A stretch of DNA of 47,413 bases, from positions 1 through 47,413 of IMG/VR virus record IMGVR_UViG_3300032223_002580; one strand, written 5' to 3'. Each line of letters begins with the position of its first letter. Positions within the stretch are counted from its first letter, which is position 1. Of this stretch, positions 246 to 43,774 are shown piece after piece. The DNA comes from a virus. A program made the position numbers and the translations under genes. The notes beneath the pieces are model-generated. The model made no database searches, was not told the origin of the DNA, and worked only from the letters and a program-made list of their open reading frames with translations.

Positions 246-295
246 CTCCTCTAATAAAAAATACCACCAATTGGTGGTATTTTTTATTAGAGGAG
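246..295. terminator. 50-bp perfect palindrome, bidirectional terminator
   Basis: Positions 246-295 read the same on both strands without a mismatch, with the centre between 270 and 271. The core is ACCACCAATTGGTGGT, flanked by A-runs on the left and T-runs on the right, so the transcript of either strand forms a stem ending in a U-rich tract. It terminates the plus-strand gene ending at 241 and the minus-strand structured RNA starting at 644. Its right edge shares four bases with the 3' acceptor strand of that RNA. Confidence 0.85.
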
Positions 296-644
296 GCGCC
301 GCTTTCGAGGTCGGGTGACTATCAATTAATTTAACCCATTTATTCATAAGCTTATGCTATTTTTCTGAATAACCAAAATATTTAATTTATTTTTCATTAA
401 AAATTAAAAAATTATTGAGTTTTTTATACATAACTACTTGTTAATTTTTTCAACAGAATTACCTGCTTTCAACATTTAAGCGTAAGCTAACTCGTTGATC
501 AAGTTGTTCGAGAATGCAAAAGCGATATCTTCGCTTGTAGCTAATTCATTTGCGTTTATTGTTTATTGCTTCTTATTAATCGGATGCAACCACCGATGCT
601 TAATCATGTTTTACCTTACGTTGACGTTCTATTCATTCGCCCCC
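292..644 (-). ncRNA. ssrA: Candidate phage transfer-messenger RNA (tmRNA)
   Basis: This 353-nt minus-strand RNA would rescue stalled ribosomes: it is charged with alanine, enters the ribosome and encodes a degradation tag. Seen in the sequence: the 5' end GGGGGCG (644-638) pairs with CGCCTCC (298-292) into a 7-bp acceptor stem whose third pair is G:U, the alanyl-tRNA synthetase identity element. Just inside the 3' strand is a T-arm-like hairpin (CCG-A-C stem, loop CTCGAAA, GCGG) with one bulged base. The length is typical of tmRNA. A tag frame without start codon begins with GCA (Ala) at 553. A host-type promoter precedes the 5' end and a palindromic terminator follows the 3' end. Against it: the D-arm consensus GGxTTCGAC is not evident, the T-stem is imperfect, and CCA is not encoded. 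Some phages are known to carry tmRNA. No protein frame of normal quality fits this stretch. Confidence 0.66.
476..553 (-). other. tmRNA tag reading frame (25 codons, no start codon)
   Basis: The frame starts at the Ala codon GCA (553-551), 9 nt after an in-frame TAA, contains no ATG, and ends at TAA (478-476). The peptide begins ANELATSEDI and ends NELAYA. Codon use differs from phage genes: AAC, ATC, TTC, TAC and GAG are frequent, as expected where codons also form RNA stems. One such stem is AAGCGA-AGATA-TCGCTT near 519-535. Host tmRNA tags are usually about 8-15 residues and end in LAA or a similar motif, so both the length and the AYA ending are unusual. Proposed as a tag only if the surrounding RNA is indeed tmRNA. 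Confidence 0.55.
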
Positions 645-656
645 ATTTTTGTTTTA

Positions 657-687
657 CAAATATACGACAAAATTTTTAAAAAACAAA
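657..687 (-). promoter_or_regulatory. Bacteroidota-type promoter for the tmRNA candidate
   Basis: On the minus strand, TTTG (687-684) is followed after 19 nt by TATATTTG (664-657). This matches the Bacteroidota sigma-A consensus TTTG/TTG at -33 and TAnnTTTG at -7. The proposed RNA 5' end at 644 lies 12 nt beyond the -7 box, leaving room for a short leader that RNase P would remove. It is the main evidence that this stretch is transcribed leftward. Confidence 0.75.
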
Positions 688-5537: not shown

Positions 5538-6560
5538 ATGAGAAATAAAATTTATAACGAAGATATATTAAAATTTTTACCAACACTACCAGATAAATCA
5601 TGTGATCTATTTATTTTAGATCCACCCTACATGAACGTAGTTGATGAAGATTGGGATAAGCAGTGGAGAACAATAGACGAATATATGAATTGGTGCGAAA
5701 GATGGATTAAAGAAGTTTCAAGAATAGGGAAATATAGTTCCTCTGTTTGGGTTTTTGGATTTCCATACCAATTATCCAGTTTAATACCTATTTTCGAGAA
5801 ATACGGATTTAAATTTAAACAACAAATAGTAATTTGGAAAGGAATGAAAAGTGCTGCCGGACGTGTAAGTAATAAATTAAAAATGTTTCCAACAACAACA
5901 GAATGCATCTATTTTTTTTATTATGATTCTTGCGAAATAATAAGAGATTTGTTGAATAAAGAAAAGGACAGAAAAAAATTAACTCCAAAAGAAATAAATG
6001 GCTTCTTAGGCAAAGCAATCCATGGTGGTGGAACTTGGAGTTCAATAGCGGGTTTAAAACAAAAAACATTACAACAACCAACCAAAGAAGATTGGGAAAA
6101 ACTTAATACTCTATTTGATGGTAATTTACCACCATACGAAAATATGGTTTATAAATTCAACCTTCCACATGGTCTGACTGATGTTTGGGATGATATTAGG
6201 TTTTATTTTAAACAAGGCACTAAATTTCATCCTACACAAAAACCAGATCAATTAATACAACGTCTAGTTGAGTGCAGCTCAAATAAAGGCGATTTAGTAA
6301 TTGATTTCTTTATGGGTTCCGGAAGCACAATTTTAAATGCAAAAGAATTAAACAGAGATTTTATAGGATGTGATATTGATCCTGATTATTTTAATGTAGT
6401 GCAAAATAGGTTAAATAACCCAAATTATATACTTAACGCTCCGGTAAAACCAGAAAAGGAAAAAGGTAAAAAAAGAAAAAAAGAATTGCTTTCCGATAAA
6501 GATTTTAAAACGGAAACTCTTAATGAAGAAGTTGATTTAAAAGATTTTTTTAACGAATAG
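5538..6560 (+). CDS. DNA methyltransferase, N6/N4 class with DPPY motif
   Basis: This enzyme transfers a methyl group from S-adenosylmethionine to adenine N6 or cytosine N4 in DNA. Motif order is beta-class: DPPY (residues 28-31) early, then late HPTQKP and the SAM-binding FMGSGST (about 258-264), followed by GCDIDPDYF. The middle part (about 130-200, with GGGTWSSIAG) is the likely target-recognition region. The length (340 aa) is normal. The gene is followed at once by a palindromic terminator and then by a candidate restriction enzyme, so the pair could be a phage-borne restriction-modification unit or host-DNA degrading system. The C-terminus DLKDFFNE resembles a sliding-clamp-binding peptide. 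Target sequence unknown. Confidence 0.9.
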   Translation: MRNKIYNEDILKFLPTLPDKSCDLFILDPPYMNVVDEDWDKQWRTIDEYMNWCERWIKEVSRIGKYSSSVWVFGFPYQLSSLIPIFEKYGFKFKQQIVIWKGMKSAAGRVSNKLKMFPTTTECIYFFYYDSCEIIRDLLNKEKDRKKLTPKEINGFLGKAIHGGGTWSSIAGLKQKTLQQPTKEDWEKLNTLFDGNLPPYENMVYKFNLPHGLTDVWDDIRFYFKQGTKFHPTQKPDQLIQRLVECSSNKGDLVIDFFMGSGSTILNAKELNRDFIGCDIDPDYFNVVQNRLNNPNYILNAPVKPEKEKGKKRKKELLSDKDFKTETLNEEVDLKDFFNE

Positions 6561-8941: not shown

Positions 8942-10078
8942 ATGCACAAAATAAATAATTTAGGTCAAGTGTTCACACCAGAACATATTGTATATAAAAT
9001 GATAAATTTAATTAAAAATGGTTTTTCAATTTTAGAGCCAGCTTGTGGAGAAGGTATATTTCTTAAACATTTGATAAATAAAAATATAACTGCAATTGAA
9101 TTTGATGCACAATATTGCCCTATTAATGCATTAAATATAGATTTTTTTGATTATGATGTTAATAATAAATTTGATACTATTATTGGCAATCCACCTTATA
9201 TAGCTGGTAAAAATATAATTAATTCAACATTATCTAAAATAAATAGTAATCTAATTACTCACGGCAAATCTAATTTATATCTTTATTTTATAGAAAAATG
9301 TATTAATCATTTGACAGAAAATGGCGAATTAATATTTATTACACCAAGGGAGTTTATTAAAACTACATCTTCGATAAAATTAAATAATTTTATCTATGAT
9401 AATGGAACAATAACAGATTGGTATGAATATGGTGATGAAGTTGTTTTTAATGGTTACTCACCTTCTGTTGTTATATGGAGATTTGAAAAAAATAATTTTA
9501 ATCGAAAAACTAATACTAATTTAGGTGAAAAGATTTTCACAAATTCAAATGGACAATTACTATTTTTAGATAGTAATTTAACTGGAACTAAATTGGGTAG
9601 TTTATTTACTATAAAAGTAGGAGCAGTTAGTGGTTTAGATAAATCATTTGAGAGTAATGATGGAAATATGGAGTTTGTTTGTTCTTATACAAATAAGACT
9701 GGAAATTTGAAAAAAATGTTTTATAACATTAAAAATGATTTTATTTTTTCAATAAAAGACGAATTAATGAAACGTCGAATAAAAATGTTTACAGAAGATA
9801 ATTGGTGGATGTGGGGTAGAGATTTTTATAAATCTGATAGAAGAAGAATTTATGTTAATGCTAAAACAAGAAATGATAAACCGTTTTTTATACATGATTG
9901 TAAAAATTATGATGGTTCTATATTAGCATTAATACCATTAACCGATGAAATTGAAAATAATATAGAATTTTATTTAGAGAAATTAAATTCGTGTGATTGG
10001 GAAAATTTAGGATTTAAAGTTGGTGGAAGATATATATTTAATCAAAAAAGTTTAGAAAATATTACAATAAATATATAA
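8942..10078 (+). CDS. N6-adenine DNA methyltransferase, Eco57I-like
   Basis: Motif order is gamma-class: GQVFTP at the N-terminus, SAM-binding LEPACGEG (31-38), acidic AIEFD, then catalytic NPPY (83-86). The C-terminal part contains the long target-recognition segment. At 378 aa it is shorter than Eco57I-type fusion enzymes, so there is no nuclease domain. It would methylate adenine in a specific site, either to protect phage DNA or to modify the host genome. It sits between two ADP-ribosyltransferase-like genes at gaps of 2 and 3 bases, so the three are surely cotranscribed. Confidence 0.9.
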   Translation: MHKINNLGQVFTPEHIVYKMINLIKNGFSILEPACGEGIFLKHLINKNITAIEFDAQYCPINALNIDFFDYDVNNKFDTIIGNPPYIAGKNIINSTLSKINSNLITHGKSNLYLYFIEKCINHLTENGELIFITPREFIKTTSSIKLNNFIYDNGTITDWYEYGDEVVFNGYSPSVVIWRFEKNNFNRKTNTNLGEKIFTNSNGQLLFLDSNLTGTKLGSLFTIKVGAVSGLDKSFESNDGNMEFVCSYTNKTGNLKKMFYNIKNDFIFSIKDELMKRRIKMFTEDNWWMWGRDFYKSDRRRIYVNAKTRNDKPFFIHDCKNYDGSILALIPLTDEIENNIEFYLEKLNSCDWENLGFKVGGRYIFNQKSLENITINI

Positions 10079-10780: not shown

Positions 10781-12202
10781 TTAATATAAATAATCTTTTA
10801 TATTTTTACTTGTTAAAGTTAAAAACACATCATTAGAATCCTTTTTATCAGTTAAAGTTTTATTATTTAATTCTAAATAATTTATAAATTCTTTTGATTT
10901 TATAACCTCTATAAATTCATCAAATTTATCTTCTTTTACATCAACTAAAATACCAGATAAATTCAATGTATCTTCATTTATAGAGGTTATAAAATATATA
11001 CCTTTTGATTTTAAGAAAGTTAATGGTAATAAAATTCTTTTACCATTAACTTTTTTTAATAAACCCTGTTTTCTACCATAAGCATACCATTCTTCATATT
11101 TAATGGCTTTACCAGCATCTCTTTTTAATAGTTCTTCTTTTATTGATAAAAAATATTCATAAGTATTTGGATAATTTAATTTTAATTTATCTTGATTTAT
11201 TATTTTCGAATTATCATAAGGGTATATAATCCAACTATAATCATCAGATGATTTAGATTTTGTAGCTTTAATAAGTTTTTTACATATCTCTTTTTCTATT
11301 TTAAAACCATTTTTATAACAAAAATTTTCATCATAAGAATCAATTTTATAAAGATTATCTTTTAATGTTGCTATACCAACACTACAATAATTTATTAAAT
11401 CATATAATTTATTTGTGCCTATATTTAATTCGTCAAATATCCATTTATCATCAGATAAATATGTTTTGTCTTTTATAATATTATTATATTCTAAATTATT
11501 TGTAATATTACCACAAGTTAAAATGCAAGTATATGTTGATATTGTTTTCCACACTTTTTTTAAAACAAAATCGTATAAATAATTAATTCTTGGTTTTAAA
11601 ATATGTCTTAAAAATTTACCTGATTTAGATTTTATAAAAGAATTTGGAATAATAAATCCTATTTGTTGTGAAGATTTTAATGCTTTTTCAATAAAAGCAA
11701 AATATAAATCTACATTACCTAATTTAACCGAATCTAATTCTAATTTTAATATATTTAAATAATCTTTATCTAAATTTTGTATCCTTACATAAGGTGGATT
11801 TCCAAAAATAATATCATATTGATTATTTTGTAAAAGAAAATCACCACAAATTATATTTTTTGGATTAATTGTTATAGAATAATAATCAAAATAAATATCT
11901 AATAATGTTCTAAATTCAGCAATGAATGTTTCGTTTATATCATAACACCACAAATTATTTTCAATAAATAAAGCAAGTGATTCTGGTGTTTCTCCATTTT
12001 TTCTAAAATATTCTAATAAACAAAATATAAAAATACCTTTACCAACACTTGGTTCACATATTTTTTGATTGATTTTTGGTTGCAATCTATTAATTATTTT
12101 GTCGCATATTTCTTTATTTGTAAAAACAACGCCTTCTTTTTTTATTAGATCCTTATTTTTATCATCGAAATAACAACTTCTATTTAATATATCTTGTATC
12201 AT
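10781..12202 (-). CDS. N6-adenine DNA methyltransferase, second Eco57I-like copy
   Basis: This 473-residue enzyme has a SAM-binding CEPSVGKGIF (49-58), the acidic DINETF, and catalytic GNPPYVRIQ (134-142), followed by a long C-terminal recognition region. It resembles the Eco57I/TaqI group and shares with the gene at 8942 a similar middle segment (ELLKRDAGKAIKYEEW here, DELMKRRIKMFTEDNW there), so the two probably share ancestry. It is transcribed alone from a host-type promoter nine bases upstream of the start, with an almost leaderless mRNA. Confidence 0.9.
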   Translation of the reverse strand: MIQDILNRSCYFDDKNKDLIKKEGVVFTNKEICDKIINRLQPKINQKICEPSVGKGIFIFCLLEYFRKNGETPESLALFIENNLWCYDINETFIAEFRTLLDIYFDYYSITINPKNIICGDFLLQNNQYDIIFGNPPYVRIQNLDKDYLNILKLELDSVKLGNVDLYFAFIEKALKSSQQIGFIIPNSFIKSKSGKFLRHILKPRINYLYDFVLKKVWKTISTYTCILTCGNITNNLEYNNIIKDKTYLSDDKWIFDELNIGTNKLYDLINYCSVGIATLKDNLYKIDSYDENFCYKNGFKIEKEICKKLIKATKSKSSDDYSWIIYPYDNSKIINQDKLKLNYPNTYEYFLSIKEELLKRDAGKAIKYEEWYAYGRKQGLLKKVNGKRILLPLTFLKSKGIYFITSINEDTLNLSGILVDVKEDKFDEFIEVIKSKEFINYLELNNKTLTDKKDSNDVFLTLTSKNIKDYLY

Positions 12203-23746: not shown

Positions 23747-25558
23747 TTAGTTAAGATACTGAGCGTTATCTTGAACAACAATTGTCATAAATTGTTTTTG
23801 TGGATACCAACCAACTTCTGCTACTGCATAACGGCTTCTCAAAAGCATTCTTGGAGCAAATGTTGCTTCAGAGATGATGCTTATTGACTGCGCCATTAAG
23901 TATGGTACGAAGATGATACCTGGTTGATCTGGATTATTCTTTCTACCAATAACAATTCTGTTATCGTTATACTTCATATATGGATCAACATATATTTGAA
24001 TGTCACCAATTTGGCCTACTTGGTAAAGTTGTCCAGAGCTATTTAATTTAGATTTAAGAGGGTTAATTGTGTAACCAGCAATATCCATTAAAGAAGCTGC
24101 AAGAGCACCATTTGTCACTGCAAATTGTGCAGGACCAACACGACCTTCTGTTGCTACATAGTTAGAAGCATGAACCATTTTAGTAATTAACTTACGTTGA
24201 ACAGCGTGAGTTGTTTCACCACCAGGACCAGCTTGTACATATGCTGTATCTAAGTCAAATATTGTAGCGCCTGTAATTGAGTTATAAGCAGTATTACCAG
24301 CATAAAGAGGAGCAGATGCTCTATTTAAGCCACCCATTTCAAATATTTTACCTACGATTTGTTTAGAAATTGTTTGAGATAATTCATTAACAAGAATTGA
24401 TTCCATTTTTTGAACGATATCCATACCTGTATTAGCTTTAATATCTTCAATTTCTGTTCTTCTTAATGCAGAAGATACTTCGATTGTACCAACAGCGATT
24501 GATTTAGAAGAAATTTTTGGACCAATTTGACCTGCATAAATATTTTCTTCTTGTGCACGATCCATTGGATATCTACCACCACCAGAGAAGTTAGAAACAT
24601 AACCTGGAATATGATCTTCTAAAGCAGATATTAATGAAATACCGGCTGTAAGACCTTTGACACCAAATGGACCTACGTTAGCACCAACTATCTGGCTAAG
24701 CATTGATTGTGTAGGTGAGAATGTATTTCTTGTTGGGTCAAAGCCCCAAGTTGTACCAGCAGAGAAGCTATTATTACTATTATTATTATTATTAATATAA
24801 GGATAAGAAAGAGTCTGAGCCGTATTTGCTTGTTTATAAGCTCTAAACATTGGATATGAATCAATTCTTGAGTAACCTAAGAATTCAACAGTATTTTGAA
24901 CATTTGATGCAGCTGAAGTACTTTGTGGGTCTTGAGTAACATAATAGTTTGTTGTACCAGAAGAAAAAGTAGCATTAATTTGTGTCCAAACTCTTGCATT
25001 TGTTATTGAACCATCAGCTCTTGTCAAACCACCAACTGATTGTATTATATTGTTTGCGCTTAAAATTGTAGAAATTGTACCAGTCAAAGATGATAAGCCA
25101 GCAGCACCCGAAACAGAAAAATCTAATTTAAAAATAGTTGGTCTTTCGTCAGAGTTACCAAGATTATTATCATCATATTGGAAATCAATATAAAGTAAGT
25201 CCATTTTAGGACCTGGTGTTGGTTTTACAGCAACTAAATCTAAACCAATAGTTTGAGCTGCAATTTTCATAGCAACTGGTAATAAATTTTGACCTAAGTC
25301 ACCAGAGCCATTAGTACCAGAGTTTGAAGACCAGTTTGTACCAATTGTTGTACCTGGTAATAATGATGCTTGTGGAGCAGTAATGCTACCTAAACCACTT
25401 ACGTTTGATACGTTTGCATAAGCATTTTCGTTAATCGCATGGTATTCGGCATATTCTGACATCCAGCTGATCTTATCAGCATCTTTAACACCCATGTTCT
25501 CCAATACAGGAGTCCATTTGTTAATAGCTTTTTGATTGTCTATACGAATGTGATTCAT
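23747..25558 (-). CDS. 23: Major capsid protein, gp23-like (603 aa)
   Basis: This is the main hexamer-forming protein of the T4-type head. Recognition: PKMDLLYIDFQYDD, the central block GPKISSKSIAVGTIEVSSALRRTEIEDIKANTGMD, which I quote in parts only, and the C-terminal RYAVAEVGWYPQ. T4 gp23 has 521 residues; here about 80 more, mostly in a Ser/Asn/Gly-rich insertion (about 235-285). The N-terminal part holds HAINE-NAY: I-N-E (residues 42-44) fits the (L/I)-x-E site cut by the prohead protease, so a propeptide of about 44 residues is likely. The gene sits below protease and portal in the usual T4 order, with a TATATAC-type element 20 nt upstream. Confidence 0.88.
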   Translation of the reverse strand: MNHIRIDNQKAINKWTPVLENMGVKDADKISWMSEYAEYHAINENAYANVSNVSGLGSITAPQASLLPGTTIGTNWSSNSGTNGSGDLGQNLLPVAMKIAAQTIGLDLVAVKPTPGPKMDLLYIDFQYDDNNLGNSDERPTIFKLDFSVSGAAGLSSLTGTISTILSANNIIQSVGGLTRADGSITNARVWTQINATFSSGTTNYYVTQDPQSTSAASNVQNTVEFLGYSRIDSYPMFRAYKQANTAQTLSYPYINNNNNSNNSFSAGTTWGFDPTRNTFSPTQSMLSQIVGANVGPFGVKGLTAGISLISALEDHIPGYVSNFSGGGRYPMDRAQEENIYAGQIGPKISSKSIAVGTIEVSSALRRTEIEDIKANTGMDIVQKMESILVNELSQTISKQIVGKIFEMGGLNRASAPLYAGNTAYNSITGATIFDLDTAYVQAGPGGETTHAVQRKLITKMVHASNYVATEGRVGPAQFAVTNGALAASLMDIAGYTINPLKSKLNSSGQLYQVGQIGDIQIYVDPYMKYNDNRIVIGRKNNPDQPGIIFVPYLMAQSISIISEATFAPRMLLRSRYAVAEVGWYPQKQFMTIVVQDNAQYLN

Positions 25559-27977: not shown

Positions 27978-28012
27978 AACAAATGTATTTCACAGTATAT
28001 AATATATATACT

Positions 28013-29569
28013 ATGAATGAATTATTTTTTAAAACAACAAATGGTTTAAGTGAAAAGTGGTTAATTAATAATCATAAAGATTATTATGATATAATATTTA
28101 ATTATGTTCTTGAAGAAGATATTTCTTTATCAGAACGTATATATCTTTATCAAAATAAATTAACAGAAAATCCAAAATGTTTAAATTGTAAAGAAAAAGT
28201 TAAATGGATTAAATTTTCTCAGGGTTACAGAAAATTTTGTTCCAAGTCTTGTGCTGCCTCTTATACTCATAAGGATGAAAATATAAAACGAAATAGAATA
28301 AAGAATTTATTAATATGTAATAAAGATGAAGAAATGAGGAAAGAAATGACTTTAAAGTCTATAAATACTAAAAAATCTTTTTCTAAGGAAAAAAAAATCG
28401 AAATAAATATTAAAAGAAAAAAAACAAATTTTGATAAATATGGTGAAGAAAGTGTATCAAAGGTTGATTATTTAAACAAAAATAAATCTATAAAAATTTC
28501 AGAAAAAATAAAAAGTAATGCAGAGTTTAAATTAAAAAATTTAATCGAATCACTCAAAGGTTATAATTTAATTGAAATATTTAAAGAAGATATTGAATTA
28601 TTTTGTGAAAAATGTAATTTAAATTTCACAATAAAAAAATATTTATTGCATCAAAGAAAAAGATTTAAAAAAACAATTTGTACAAATTGTAATCCTACCG
28701 ACAATAAATCTGATTTTGAATACCAAGTTTTGAACTTTATAAAAGAAAATTATAATGGTGAAATACAAAATAATATATTTTTTGATAAAAAATATGAAAT
28801 AGATATTTATTTACCAGATTTAAATATTGGAATTGAATGTAATGGATTATGGTGGCATTCGGAAGTATATAAAGATAAATATTATCATCAAGAAAAATTA
28901 GATTTTTTTAATAAAAAAGATATTAAAATATTAAATATATGGGAAGATGATTGGAATTTTAAATCAGAAATTATAAAAAATAGAATTCTTTATAAACTTC
29001 ATAAATTAAAAAATAAAATTTATTCAAGAAAATGTTATATTAATATAGTAGACAATAAGTTATCTAAATCGTTTTTAAATGATAATCATATACAAGGTTA
29101 TTGTATATCATCTGTCAATATAGGCATTTTCTATGAAAATGAATTAATAAGTTTAATTACTTTTGGAAAATTAAGAAAAAATCTTGGCTTAAAAAGCATT
29201 GATAGAAATTATGAATTATTAAGGTTTTGTACTAAAATTGGATATACAAATATAGGTGCTTTTTCTAAATTAATAAAATTTTTTATAAAAAATTATAATC
29301 CTGATAGGATTATATCATATTGTGATGCGTCTTTTAATGATGGTAAAACATATTCAGAAAACAATTTTAATTTCATTAAAAGAACTAAACCTAATTATTA
29401 TTGGTTTAATAAAGATATAGGGTTAAAATTAAATAGATGGAATTTTCGAAAAGATATTTTAGTAAAAAAAGGATATGATAAAAACAAAACAGAAGTTGAA
29501 ATAATGAATTCCATAGGTTATTACAGAATATGGGACTGTGGTTCATATTTATATGAAATTAATATTTAA
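28013..29569 (+). CDS. Homing endonuclease with PD-(D/E)xK core and GNAT-like tail (518 aa)
   Basis: The order of domains is: a zinc site (CLNCKEK and CSKSC), a helical linker, a second zinc pair (CEKC and CTNC), the nuclease core (FEYQVLNFI, YEIDIYLPDLNIGIECNG, WWHSE, NIWEDDW), and a C-terminal domain of about 180 residues (NHIQG, ELISLITFG, YELLRFC, IISYCDAS, KTEVEIMNS). The enzyme should cut phage DNA and drive its own spread. The start at 28013 is chosen over 27983 because the longer reading would add MYFTVYNIYT, translated from the AT-rich promoter-like element. It is inserted between the protease and portal genes, on the opposite strand. Confidence 0.85.
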   Translation: MNELFFKTTNGLSEKWLINNHKDYYDIIFNYVLEEDISLSERIYLYQNKLTENPKCLNCKEKVKWIKFSQGYRKFCSKSCAASYTHKDENIKRNRIKNLLICNKDEEMRKEMTLKSINTKKSFSKEKKIEINIKRKKTNFDKYGEESVSKVDYLNKNKSIKISEKIKSNAEFKLKNLIESLKGYNLIEIFKEDIELFCEKCNLNFTIKKYLLHQRKRFKKTICTNCNPTDNKSDFEYQVLNFIKENYNGEIQNNIFFDKKYEIDIYLPDLNIGIECNGLWWHSEVYKDKYYHQEKLDFFNKKDIKILNIWEDDWNFKSEIIKNRILYKLHKLKNKIYSRKCYINIVDNKLSKSFLNDNHIQGYCISSVNIGIFYENELISLITFGKLRKNLGLKSIDRNYELLRFCTKIGYTNIGAFSKLIKFFIKNYNPDRIISYCDASFNDGKTYSENNFNFIKRTKPNYYWFNKDIGLKLNRWNFRKDILVKKGYDKNKTEVEIMNSIGYYRIWDCGSYLYEINI

Positions 29570-36399: not shown

Positions 36400-38253
36400 T
36401 TATATTTTATATATCCATTTTTCTTGACCACAAGAAAAAACTCGATAATAACCACGCTCATGCATTATTTCAACTTCGGTTTTATTTGAATTGAAACCTT
36501 CTTTTATTAATTTTTTCTTATTATAGTTAAATCTGTGTTTTTTAACTCCACTTACTACCCAAAAATAATTCGGTTCCGATAAATGAATTTTTTTAAAACC
36601 TAATTTTTGATATATAGCGCCATTAAATAAAGAAATATCAGCATAAGATATAATTTCATTTATTTGATTATTTTTAATGAAATATGAAAATAATTTAGAA
36701 GCAGCGCCAATAACATTTAAATTCAATTTATTGCAAAATCTTATCAACTCATATTCTTTTTTGCCATTAGTATATCGCCAACCAAATGTCATTAAACTTA
36801 CTAACTCTTTATCATAGAATAAACCTAATTTTATTTGTGATGGAGAAAATCCTTGAATATGGTTAATATCTAAAAATTGCCTTGCTTGTTTAGATTCGAC
36901 AAATTTAACTTGACATTTTCTTGCAAAAATTTTCGTTTTAATTAAACTTAATTTATTTAATATGATTGATTTGATTATATTTCGTTTATATTTCCAATCA
37001 TCTTCCCAAATATGCAAAAGTTGTATTCCTTTCTCTTTGCAAAGTAAAGTTTTATTTATATGATAATTTGAATCAACATAAATTTCCGAATGCCAATAAA
37101 CACCATTCATTTCAATAGCTAAATTATATTCAGGAAAATAAATATCTAATTCTAAACCATTTAATATTTTTTTATTTTTAACTTCATAAGTTAAAAATAA
37201 ATTATTCAAAAAGTCTTGCATTTCAATCTCCATATAAGATTGTTGAATATCAATAGGATAACAATCTGTGCATAAACAAATTTCTAAATTTAATCTTGAA
37301 TATAAAGCATCACGATTTATTTGAAATTCCTTTTCACAATTTTTATGAAAAATCGAAAATAATTTATTTTCATAAGATATTATACTATATTCATCACCAA
37401 TTAGATTTTCATATCTTAATTTAGTTAAAGATTCTCTTTTAGATTTAACCAAATTTTTAAATTCATCAGTTTTTGAGTAATGCTCAACTCCCCATTTTTC
37501 TAAGCTAATTTTTCTATTTTTTTCCTTATATTCAGAAGTTTGTGTATAATATTCAAATCCCCATTTTTCTAAGTTTGTCTGTTTAATTTTTTGTTTGTAT
37601 TCTTCAGTATTAGAATAATATGTACCCCATTTTTGAAATTGATTTTCTATAATTTTATTTTTACACTCCTGCGATTGAGAATATTTTTTGAAACCATATT
37701 TTTCTAAATTAGTTTCATCAGATTTTTTTCTAATTTCTTCCGATTGTTGTGGATATTTCACTCCATATCTATCTAAATTAGTTTGTTTTATTTTTTCTTT
37801 AATTTCTGAGTTTTGCAAAGGATTTTCAGTCCCGAATTTCTTTAAATTAGTTTCTTTAAATTTTAATTTATATTCTTCAGTTTTCGAATAATGATCTACT
37901 CCATATTTATCAATTAAAGATTGTTTTAATTTATCTTTAACTAAAGCCGATTTCATGGGATTTTCGACACCATATTTTTTTATACATGTTTCCTTTGCCC
38001 TTTTTTTATTGCATTTATTACAAAAATATTCTTTTGTTAATCCTTCTGTATAATGATAATAATCTTTAAAAACATTTTTGTTTTCCAAACCACATTTGTC
38101 ACAAATGCATGTAATTTTTATTACACTTCCAGGCAATAAATCTTTTACTTTAATCAAACAAGGCTTTCTATAATTGATATCATATCCTAATTTTTTATAA
38201 TAGTCATAATTAGTCCTATGTCCGTTAATAACCACTTCTAATTCTTTAATCAT
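36400..38253 (-). CDS. Homing endonuclease with KYGVxNP repeats and GNAT-like tail (617 aa)
   Basis: The N-terminus is a beta/zinc part (CDKCG and CNKC), followed by about nine tandem units of 20-25 residues with the core EKYGVENP or EKWGFEYY, which should read DNA as helix-type repeats. The nuclease core has EMQDFL, LELDIYFPEYNLAIEMNG, YWHSE and HIWEDDW. The C-terminal domain carries NHIQGFSPS, ELVSLMTFGWR, YELIRFCNK, IISYADISLF and KTEVEIMHE. The end lies before the gp55-like gene region, and a TATATAC element abuts the start. It should cut and invade phage DNA. Confidence 0.87.
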   Translation of the reverse strand: MIKELEVVINGHRTNYDYYKKLGYDINYRKPCLIKVKDLLPGSVIKITCICDKCGLENKNVFKDYYHYTEGLTKEYFCNKCNKKRAKETCIKKYGVENPMKSALVKDKLKQSLIDKYGVDHYSKTEEYKLKFKETNLKKFGTENPLQNSEIKEKIKQTNLDRYGVKYPQQSEEIRKKSDETNLEKYGFKKYSQSQECKNKIIENQFQKWGTYYSNTEEYKQKIKQTNLEKWGFEYYTQTSEYKEKNRKISLEKWGVEHYSKTDEFKNLVKSKRESLTKLRYENLIGDEYSIISYENKLFSIFHKNCEKEFQINRDALYSRLNLEICLCTDCYPIDIQQSYMEIEMQDFLNNLFLTYEVKNKKILNGLELDIYFPEYNLAIEMNGVYWHSEIYVDSNYHINKTLLCKEKGIQLLHIWEDDWKYKRNIIKSIILNKLSLIKTKIFARKCQVKFVESKQARQFLDINHIQGFSPSQIKLGLFYDKELVSLMTFGWRYTNGKKEYELIRFCNKLNLNVIGAASKLFSYFIKNNQINEIISYADISLFNGAIYQKLGFKKIHLSEPNYFWVVSGVKKHRFNYNKKKLIKEGFNSNKTEVEIMHERGYYRVFSCGQEKWIYKI

Positions 38254-39993: not shown

Positions 39994-41163
39994 TTATATA
40001 TAAAAATAATTCTCATGATTATTAGACTTTAACCTATATCTAATTAATTGTCTATCTATATTAGTTTTTCTAACTGCTTCTGCAATTGATTCATATATTA
40101 TACCATCAATTGATATTTTCTTAAATTTTTGTGGTCCAGTTTCTTTCAATTCAATATCTTTATTTAAATAGAACCAATCAGGATAAGATTTTGAATTTAA
40201 TCGCCAAGTAATATAATCATGTGTTTTATTTAATTTAATAGTAGCTTCTGTTATTGAAGTGTATTCTATACCGTTTATAGAAATTTTTTCTTTTTTAGAA
40301 TCCTCTTTTATAATATATTTACCATTTTTAACATTTAAACTATCGTCTGAATATAAATAATTTGGAAAATTAGGAGAAATTAATCTAAACCCTATTGTTG
40401 TTATTTTAATATCTTTGATATCACAGCATTCTTTTATAGAATTATATTCAATACCATCAACTATAACTTTTTTTTCTTTAGTATTTTTTTTGACATCTAT
40501 GATTTTTTTCTTCTTTCTATTTTTACCAAATATAAATTTTAAATCTTGTCCAAAGAAATCATAGAAACCTTCTGCATTTTTTAAAAAATTATCTGCAACT
40601 CTTTTTTTGATTAATTTTAATTCATCTATATGATTATCAATATTCCCTTTTATAATTTCCTCTCTAATAAATTTACATCTTTTTATTAATTCTTCTCGTT
40701 TATTATCAAAAAATAATTTTCGTCTTTGGTTAGATTTATTCGAAAAAATTGATAAATTTATTTTTGATTTTAACTTTTCTTTATATTCTTTTGCTTTTTC
40801 TTCGCCAAAAGATTCTTCGTATGTTTTACCTTTAACTAAACTACCATTTGATATTTTTTCTTTGATGATGTCTAAATTGGGATTATTAGATAATGTATCC
40901 CCACCATCTCCTCCTTTTGATATATTATAACCTATTTCTATATTAGTAGAATTAAATTTTTTAATCCAATACTTTTCTTTTATAGACAATTCTTCGTAAT
41001 TATCTGTTTCATCTATAATTTCTTTTTTGAAATTATCTATACCATATTTTTCTATGGATCTTTTGATCAATAAACCAGACCCAAAATAATTTGGATCTGA
41101 AGTTGTATCTTTACCTATGTAAATTTTATTGTTAATTAAATTAGTAATTTTGTAGATTTGCAT
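39994..41163 (-). CDS. GIY-YIG homing endonuclease with helix repeats (389 aa)
   Basis: The nuclease is at the N-terminus: QIYKITNLINNKIYIG (residues 2-17), FGSGLLIKRSIEKYG and the catalytic Glu in SIKEKYWIKKF. The C-terminal half has three repeats of about 38 residues (INGIEYTSITEA..WYL/YFYI), which look like NUMOD-type DNA-reading units. It should cut DNA near its own insertion site. It lies between the DUF5872-like and ART-like genes. Confidence 0.88.
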   Translation of the reverse strand: MQIYKITNLINNKIYIGKDTTSDPNYFGSGLLIKRSIEKYGIDNFKKEIIDETDNYEELSIKEKYWIKKFNSTNIEIGYNISKGGDGGDTLSNNPNLDIIKEKISNGSLVKGKTYEESFGEEKAKEYKEKLKSKINLSIFSNKSNQRRKLFFDNKREELIKRCKFIREEIIKGNIDNHIDELKLIKKRVADNFLKNAEGFYDFFGQDLKFIFGKNRKKKKIIDVKKNTKEKKVIVDGIEYNSIKECCDIKDIKITTIGFRLISPNFPNYLYSDDSLNVKNGKYIIKEDSKKEKISINGIEYTSITEATIKLNKTHDYITWRLNSKSYPDWFYLNKDIELKETGPQKFKKISIDGIIYESIAEAVRKTNIDRQLIRYRLKSNNHENYFYI

Positions 41164-41854: not shown

Positions 41855-43774
41855 TTATATATTAATTAATTCAAATTTTAATTTCCCACAATCATATATT
41901 TTATTAATTCCTCTATTTTTCATTTCAAGGGATTCAGTTAACTGTGTATTTAATTTAGTTTTTTTAAAATTAGATTTATGTATTCTTTTATTTTCGATAA
42001 TATATTTATAATCAGGGTTTGTCTCTGAAATTAATTTAAATCCTAATTTATAATATAAGTTGCCTTCAGACCAAATTCGATCTGCATAACTTATAATTCT
42101 TAATGGATTATAATTTTTTATAAAATAATTTAAAAGTTTACTAGCACCGCCAACAACATTATAATTTAATTTATTACAAAATCTAGAAAGATTCCATCCA
42201 TCTTTTTCCATTTTTTTTCGTCCTTCAAAATTATCAAATGTCATCACTGAAATTAATTCGTCATTAAAATATAAACCTAATTTAATTAGAGATTTGTCTG
42301 AGCCTTGTATATGATTCTCATTTAAAAAATTTTTAATGTTATATAATTCTCTAATTTTACATTTTCTAGCAAATATTTTATTTTCAGTTAAACCTAAAAC
42401 ATTTTTAATTTGACTTTTAATTATATCTTGTTTCAAATCCCAATCATCTTCAAATATGTGCATAATTCTTATACCATTTTTCATGAAATATAAAGTTTTA
42501 TTTAAATGATAATTATTTTCTTTAAATTCATTAGAATGCCAATATAAACCATTAAATTCTATACCAAATTTAAGTTCTGGTAAATAAATATCTATTTCTA
42601 AAACATCTCTGTAACCAGATAAAATTTCACCTTTGTAAAAAGATTTAATAAATTCTAATAGTTGTTTTTCTTTAATCGATTTCAAATCATCAATAGGGTA
42701 ACAAATAGTGCATAATGGTAAATTAGATTCTAATCTTTTGTAAAAATTATCTGATTTTATTTCAAAATAGTGTCCATTTATACATTTAAAAGAAGATATA
42801 TTATTTTCAATATATTTTATATAATTTGGATGTTTTGCAATTTTAAAGTTTTCTTTCCTGAAATTTTCATCTTTAACGATGTTATCAACACCATACTCTT
42901 TTAAGTTGGTTTCCTTTATTTTGTTTGATATTATTTTCCAATCTTCATAAGTAAATTTAGATAATGTTTCCTTAATTTTTTCTATATTATTATAATTTTT
43001 GTTACCATATCTTATTAATTTAGTATTTTTAATATTATCTATTATTTTTAATTTTTTTTCATCTGTTAAATTATTATAATTTTCCTTAATTTTTTCTATA
43101 TTATTATAATTTTTGTTACCATATCTTATTAATTTAGTTATTTTTATTTTATCTGATATTATTTTCCAATCTTCATAAGTATATTTAGATAATGTTTCCT
43201 TAATTTTTTTATTAATATCAATTGATTGTGTTGGATTTTCAACACCATAATTCTTCATTAATGTTTTTTTGGATTTTTCTTTAAATTCATCTGACTTCAT
43301 CCAATCCGATGATTTTTTTTTCATTATTTTAGTTTGTGATATATGTTCTACATCATATTTATTTATTAAAGTTTTTTTAGATTTTAATTTAATATCTTTA
43401 GATTGTTGTAAATATTCCACACCATATTTTTCCAAATTAGTTTCTTTTTGTTTTTTCTGAAATTCTTCCAATTGTAAAGGATGTTCAACACCATATTTTT
43501 TTAAATTAGTTTCTTTGGCTTTTTTTGCACCACATATTTTACAACATGAATATTTACCACCTAAACTTATATTTCTCAAATATTCTCTATATGTAATGCT
43601 AACTTCATTTTCACAAAAATCGCATAAAACATCTACAATTTCTCTTGAACCAATTGTTAAATCTTTTATATTTATTTGCAGAATTTCTTTATCAATATCA
43701 TAACCTAATTTCTTAAAATATTCTAATTTCCTACAACCTTTCTTTAATATGTTTACAAAATTATTTTTTATCAT
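41855..43774 (-). CDS. Homing endonuclease with internal repeats and GNAT-like tail (639 aa)
   Basis: The protein has an N-terminal zinc part (CDFCE, CKICG), KYGVEHP/KYGVEYL repeats, then a duplicated segment TKLIRYGNKNYNNIEKIKE, the nuclease core (KEKQLLEFI, LEIDIYLPELKFGIEFNG, YWHSNE, HIFEDDW), and the C-terminal domain (NHIQGSDKS, ELISVMTFDNF, LSRFCNK, RIISYADRIW). The C-terminal domain ends in a variant CGK. It is larger than its relatives because of the internal duplication. It should act as a mobile endonuclease. Confidence 0.85.
   Translation of the reverse strand: MIKNNFVNILKKGCRKLEYFKKLGYDIDKEILQINIKDLTIGSREIVDVLCDFCENEVSITYREYLRNISLGGKYSCCKICGAKKAKETNLKKYGVEHPLQLEEFQKKQKETNLEKYGVEYLQQSKDIKLKSKKTLINKYDVEHISQTKIMKKKSSDWMKSDEFKEKSKKTLMKNYGVENPTQSIDINKKIKETLSKYTYEDWKIISDKIKITKLIRYGNKNYNNIEKIKENYNNLTDEKKLKIIDNIKNTKLIRYGNKNYNNIEKIKETLSKFTYEDWKIISNKIKETNLKEYGVDNIVKDENFRKENFKIAKHPNYIKYIENNISSFKCINGHYFEIKSDNFYKRLESNLPLCTICYPIDDLKSIKEKQLLEFIKSFYKGEILSGYRDVLEIDIYLPELKFGIEFNGLYWHSNEFKENNYHLNKTLYFMKNGIRIMHIFEDDWDLKQDIIKSQIKNVLGLTENKIFARKCKIRELYNIKNFLNENHIQGSDKSLIKLGLYFNDELISVMTFDNFEGRKKMEKDGWNLSRFCNKLNYNVVGGASKLLNYFIKNYNPLRIISYADRIWSEGNLYYKLGFKLISETNPDYKYIIENKRIHKSNFKKTKLNTQLTESLEMKNRGINKIYDCGKLKFELINI
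42968..43137 (-). repeat. Exact 57-bp repeats within the homing gene
   Basis: 42968-43024 and 43081-43137 are identical over 57 bases, and a further block at about 42926-42980 recurs at 43154-43210 with one difference. They encode the repeated RYGNKNYNNIEKIKE units. This is a recent internal expansion of the DNA-reading repeats. Confidence 0.85.

Follow-up and report, generated by a model that had tools for sequence, protein, structure and literature searches.

A probable one-piece tmRNA gene of a Mahaphage-like huge phage belongs to a family with altered T-arms and long tags

Does a 353-nt stretch with alanine-type paired ends, in a fragment of a phage genome, encode a tmRNA that standard models overlook? 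An earlier note on this DNA had proposed so, and we analysed the locus in its window, which is the whole 47.4-kb fragment (an IMG/VR record of 47,413 nt). Positions 292-644 of the minus strand are very probably a one-piece tmRNA gene from a 'Mahaphage'-like huge phage that infects Bacteroidota, with the following elements.

292-644, minus strand: probable tmRNA (ssrA) gene, mature RNA from G1 to C72, 353 nt; the homologues L002 and L001 match RF00023 positions 1-374
638-644, minus strand: 5' strand of the acceptor stem, GGGGGCG, pairing with 292-298; G3:U70 in all members
292-298, minus strand: 3' strand of the acceptor stem, CGCCTCC; the discriminator is position 291
299-314, minus strand: T-arm CCG(A)C-CUCGAAA-GCGG, a 4-bp stem from which one A bulges, aligned with CCGG-UUCGAAA-CCGG of L002
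598-628, minus strand: end of the D-segment and 5' strand of the H2 helix (approximate); covarying helices
318-351, minus strand: 3' strand of the H2 helix (approximate); covarying helices
565-597, minus strand: PK1 pseudoknot, two covarying helices; the most conserved block in the alignment with relatives
597-593/583-579, minus strand: PK1 stem 1, AUCGG/CCGAU
590-586/569-565, minus strand: PK1 stem 2, GUUGC/GCAAU
476-553, minus strand: tag reading frame with resume codon GCA (553-551), 25 a.a. ANELATSEDIAFAFSNNLINELAYA and stop UAA (478-476); frame conserved in relatives
657-687, minus strand: predicted Bacteroidota-type promoter TTTG-19 nt-TATATTTG, upstream of the gene
246-295, no strand assigned: perfect 50-nt palindrome with T-runs, predicted to act as an intrinsic terminator in both directions; the last 4 nt of the acceptor lie within it

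The ends pair over 7 bp including G3:U70, and the start-less frame of 25 codons begins at GCA, both as first read. The host-type promoter, in the Bacteroidota form (TTTG-19-TATATTTG), and the palindromic terminator are present as sequence, and both are conserved in the family described below: 48 of 70 members have TAnnTTTG no more than 40 nt upstream, a motif present in 2.5% of random 40-nt windows, and 66 of 71 have a hairpin with 6 bp or more just downstream of the acceptor, compared with 16% of shuffles.

The window copy indeed escapes the standard tools: it is called neither by ARAGORN nor by Rfam at gathering thresholds, and with permissive Rfam thresholds the only scoring matches are to parts of tmRNA models, below every threshold. 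Folding alone lends no support, as RNAfold gave the bare mature RNA a z-score of only -0.40 (a z of -5.9 in another fold was due to inclusion of the terminator). The missing matches and the weak z-score would fit a chance resemblance in an AT-rich intergenic stretch, a reading to which we give next to no credence, since it is already refuted by homology. A search with the peptidase gene neighbouring the window tmRNA found L001 and L002, with the same RNA downstream in both. These RNAs match RF00023 over all 374 positions, under the gathering cut-off (L002, 41.2 bits, E 3e-15; L001, 33.3 bits, E 7e-12), and a further relative, L061, scores 74.6 bits, above it. With a profile built from the window, L001 and L002 and iterated on loci fetched by capsid protein and tag motif, 118 full-length loci representing 71 distinct sequences were obtained from viral contigs. 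The same architecture recurs in these 71 homologous sequences with compensatory changes, indicating that the window match is more than chance; the synteny near the major capsid gene and the relatives above the Rfam cut-off argue likewise. The window RNA shares descent with 70 other viral sequences. In the tree it groups with L001 and L002 (100/100), within a 10-row clade (100/99). ARAGORN detects 1 of 44 distinct family sequences, the copies in LR745206 and LR756502 being among the 43 missed, and 1 of 6 tested loci was detected at the Rfam gathering threshold.

Several other candidates were rejected. A permuted tmRNA (weak RF04321 match, 11.1 bits) was ruled out by ends that pair in the standard order, and a group I intron in the T-loop by a 353-nt gene without an insert; HPnc0260, STnc430 and similar weak Rfam matches fall far under their own cut-offs, and the PK1 DNA pattern that picked out L005 matched there by chance, within coding sequence that gave no Rfam signal. 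A Bxz1 tag sequence gave no match and is not used. Three individual loci were also observed. In L015 (14927-15344) the tmRNA keeps its tag and 3' half, but its 5' half is swapped for unrelated sequence, and the gene may be broken. L093 (LR756504, 1504-1857) carries a tmRNA above the Rfam cut-off; its tag, DNVNSFEQSILNELFAPVEMAVAA, has 24 a.a., and its T-loop is altered to GUCGUA on 6 bp. L099 (LR756501, a 735-kb phage, around 718388-718731) may be a tmRNA that has diverged strongly and carries a long frame resembling a tag (GDYKMNAEDMMSIP...VEDLVLA); it was left out of the family count because its acceptor is not definable.

The major capsid protein of the window (23747-25558) is 65% identical to its counterparts in LR756502 (642-kb phage) and LR745206 (635-kb phage), and is more distantly related to those of Lak phages. 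Al-Shayeb et al. assign those of their genomes that exceed 634 kb, together with Lak, to the Mahaphage clade, with Bacteroidetes hosts (PMC7162821). The family tmRNA mostly lies a few kb downstream of the capsid gene; in the window the two are 23 kb apart, with many other genes between. Among the capsid-bearing contigs without a match, many stop short of that position or match elsewhere, and in a few the flank is long enough and contains none. The window also carries four long homing endonuclease-like genes (27983-29569, plus strand; 36400-38253, 41855-43774 and 39994-41163, minus strand), three of phrog_3339 type, one of these also matching Pfam DUF7487, and one GIY-YIG, as well as three separate genes with matches to DNA methyltransferase families (5538-6560, 8942-10078 and 10781-12202).

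Pairing of the 5' and 3' segments, a pseudoknot and compensatory changes in related phages were among the checks proposed at the outset, and all are found in the homologues, as are a conserved acceptor and tag. Two acceptor pairs distinguish L002 from the window by a change on each strand, 5:68 (C-G to G-C) and 6:67 (U-A to C-G). In members with a 6-bp T-stem, 99.7% of the acceptor and T-stem cells are paired, the covariation score is 0.50 (0.16 in shuffles; reached in 0 of 500), and both sides have changed in 62 cells, compared with 19 in shuffles. H2 and PK1 show double changes at 18 of 20 pairs (0/500 shuffles). The H2 helix, which joins the tRNA-like and mRNA-like domains, contributes 12 covarying pairs that are 96-100% paired, and in PK1, upstream of the resume codon, stem 1 is 100% and stem 2 is 82% paired, with double changes. 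G3:U70 is invariant throughout the family; the apparent exception, L080, was a mis-drawn acceptor whose true pair is GGGGGTG/CACTTCC.

The tag is also conserved. Family tags are 25-34 a.a. long, have ends that include VA, TV, LV, TA, FA and YA (-AYA in the 25-a.a. window tag), and share a core resembling [AG]N.NEV[AG][ST].ED[LIV]..AL.NN. Of the 17 nucleotide differences between the window and L002 tags, 11 fall at third codon positions (p=0.008), and pS is 0.57 against a pN of 0.13, a pattern that points to purifying selection on the window tag frame. The commonest tag length in the published tmRNA database is 10 residues (PMC11915505). The host tmRNAs compared carry GENNYALAA, although their count is circular because the loci were fetched by that pattern; the host T-loop count given below is not. 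In one clade (L294, L305, L308, L033 and similar) the frame continues upstream without a stop past the aligned resume codon (GKVVNGKTN...), making the resume point ambiguous.

The tmRNA consensus comprises a 5-bp T-arm with a UUCRANN loop, among the most conserved RNA motifs, and a D-segment, GGnUUCGAC, without a D-stem. The T-loop is UUCRA in all 69 Bacteroidota tmRNAs that ARAGORN detected among 80 control loci. In the family, about 54 of 71 members instead have a GGCRGUA-type loop (GGCAGUA, GGCGGUA, GGCAGUG and similar), mostly on a 6-bp stem. It maps to one change on the tmRNA tree (96% of bootstrap trees), indicating a single origin; one row, L258, has its T-loop altered further. The window belongs to the UUCG-like part of the family, in a three-sequence clade with L001 and L002 that has short T-stems. 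L061 and L002 retain a UUCGAAN loop, and the stem is 4 bp in L002 and the window, where it is bulged and closes a CUCGAAA loop. The T-arm-like hairpin first reported at 314-299 is therefore real by homology but weak, at about -1 kcal/mol versus -5 to -7 in relatives. The D-arm consensus is absent, as had been noted, the D-segment of the window being AAUGAAUAGAACGUCAACG rather than GGnUUCGAC. A further detail, missing from the earlier note, is the discriminator: U73 occurs only in the window, whereas the other 70 members have A. The window thus departs from the tmRNA consensus in T-arm, D-segment and discriminator, but the lost T-arm consensus is the variant itself and does not prove non-membership. 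The RNA is unusual, as suspected, in its T-loop/D-segment and long tag and not in its acceptor.

The base at position 73 and G3:U70 are key for AlaRS recognition (PMC3968760). The window copy is the most eroded of the family, and its activity is less certain given the weak T-arm and the unique U73. It could be a recently decaying tmRNA in a functional family, with T-arm and discriminator damaged, perhaps by templated palindrome correction or an assembly error. The U73 found in 1 of 71 members and the weakest T-arm of those folded fit such decay, and, speculatively, correction from the far arm of the palindrome, which runs into the acceptor, could have altered position 73. We nevertheless consider decay unlikely: the acceptor, PK1 and the tag have stayed intact, their changes being compensatory or synonymous, and selection for pairing would account for the closing pair of the T-stem, which is G-C in L002 and C-G in the window.

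SmpB (Pfam PF01668) was found in 5 of 6 huge-phage reference records (LR745206, LR756502, LR756504, LR756501 and Lak-B5) and in the IMG/VR contigs G032 and G042. The phage SmpBs show sequence similarity to solved SmpB structures and have an intact C-terminal tail. SmpB was looked for and not detected in LR756500, which has a canonical tmRNA with the short tag GNNAEMRMAA, nor was it found in the L001 and L002 contigs, the nearest relatives, both fragments like the window. Lak-B5 combines SmpB with a canonical T-loop and a short tag ending in MAA, which shows that phages with SmpB need not have the altered T-loop. Of 8 huge-phage records, 7 contain ClpP-family proteins, some of which may be head maturation proteases. 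LR745206, whose tmRNA is non-canonical, also encodes a partial AlaRS-like protein of about 292 a.a. (368019-368711).

Contacts between D-loop and T-loop are reported as required for SmpB binding by tmRNA (PMC3968760), so the remodelled loops need explanation; our hypothesis is that the tRNA-like domain has adapted to the phage's own SmpB. An altered elbow might also be expected of a tRNA-like decoy RNA that would block trans-translation in the host by titrating SmpB or AlaRS; such a role has been proposed for the RNA of mycobacteriophage DS6A, which consists of a tRNA-like domain only (PMC4131195, PMC11915505). This reading seems highly improbable here, as the mRNA-like domain is complete, with PK1 and a selected tag frame, and the reference huge phages with related tmRNAs carry their own SmpB, which argues for use rather than blockade.

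The gene architecture, tmRNA homology, covarying stems, selected tag frame and conserved transcription signals are observed, and they are best read as the usual chemistry of trans-translation, with alanine charging, SmpB, a resume codon and a tag, carried out by a phage gene; whatever goes beyond the gene structure is what we infer. The RNA would be made from the host-type promoter and trimmed by host RNases, its CCA, which is not encoded, would be added, and AlaRS would charge it via G3:U70. SmpB, supplied by the phage where it encodes one, would bind the RNA, which would enter ribosomes stalled at broken mRNA ends and switch translation to GCA, so that a 25-residue phage-specific tag ending in -AYA would be appended. 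Ribosomes would thereby be kept available during infection, and the rescued products would be directed to proteolysis, possibly by another route than the ALAA route of the host. A phage-dedicated system, suggested by the altered elbow and long tag, is plausible but unproven. More tentatively, huge phages may have evolved their own trans-translation, in which an elbow made of the GGCRGUA T-loop on a 13-bp acceptor/T stack and a rewired D-segment is read by the phage SmpB, and the long non-ALAA tag leads to a phage-controlled fate and not to host ALAA degradation; the window clade, with its UUCG-like loop, lies outside the GGCRGUA clade. Why phages use long tags without an ALAA ending is a question raised by the family. 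With more than 50 distinct tmRNAs that lost UUCRANN in one step and kept G3:U70, PK1 and a selected tag, the family constitutes a natural test of elbow function, sharpened by SmpB in both huge-phage reference genomes of the GGCRGUA clade.

Mycobacteriophages and phage G (PMC4131195), as well as huge phages (PMC7162821, PMC9723777), were already known to carry tmRNAs; what is new is a largely overlooked variant in huge phages. In the literature searched (open-licence papers only), we found no description of either the GGCRGUA T-loop or the tag family. The rarity presumed in the earlier note holds only in part: phage tmRNAs are uncommon but not exceptional, being detected by ARAGORN in 402 of 18,146 phage genomes (PMC9004378) and reported in huge phages (PMC7162821). 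Such counts are underestimates, given the single detection by ARAGORN among 44 sequences here, and the 2025 tmRNA database drew its viruses from RefSeq (PMC11915505).

The family resembles the bacterial one-piece tmRNA of the Bacteroidota type (RF00023) in its G3:U70 acceptor, H2, PK1 before the resume codon and start-less tag frame. It differs from that type, with its UUCRA loop and GENNYALAA tag, in having GGCRGUA on 6 bp in most members and CUCGAAA on a bulged 4-bp stem in the window, and in tags of 25-34 a.a. that do not end in ALAA. A complete phage-borne tmRNA gene is shared with mycobacteriophages (Bxz1, Cali, Wildcat and others) and Bacillus phage G (PMC4131195), but the phage G tmRNA, unlike that of the window, is found by ARAGORN and Rfam and has a 13-a.a. 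tag, AKLNITNNELQVA, and a canonical UUCGACU T-loop. The huge phages of Al-Shayeb et al. 2020 (PMC7162821) include the same superclade (Mahaphage) and carry tmRNA and SmpB, although that survey relied on ARAGORN, by which 43 of the 44 family sequences tested go undetected; Mar_Mega_1 (PMC9723777) is likewise a huge phage with a reported tmRNA and SmpB. The ssrA of the marine methylophage Melnitz (PMC9004378), like that proposed for this family, would serve to sustain or redirect translation in infected cells, but the Melnitz tmRNA is permuted, two-piece and controlled by a glutamine riboswitch, whereas that of the window is one-piece with its own predicted promoter.
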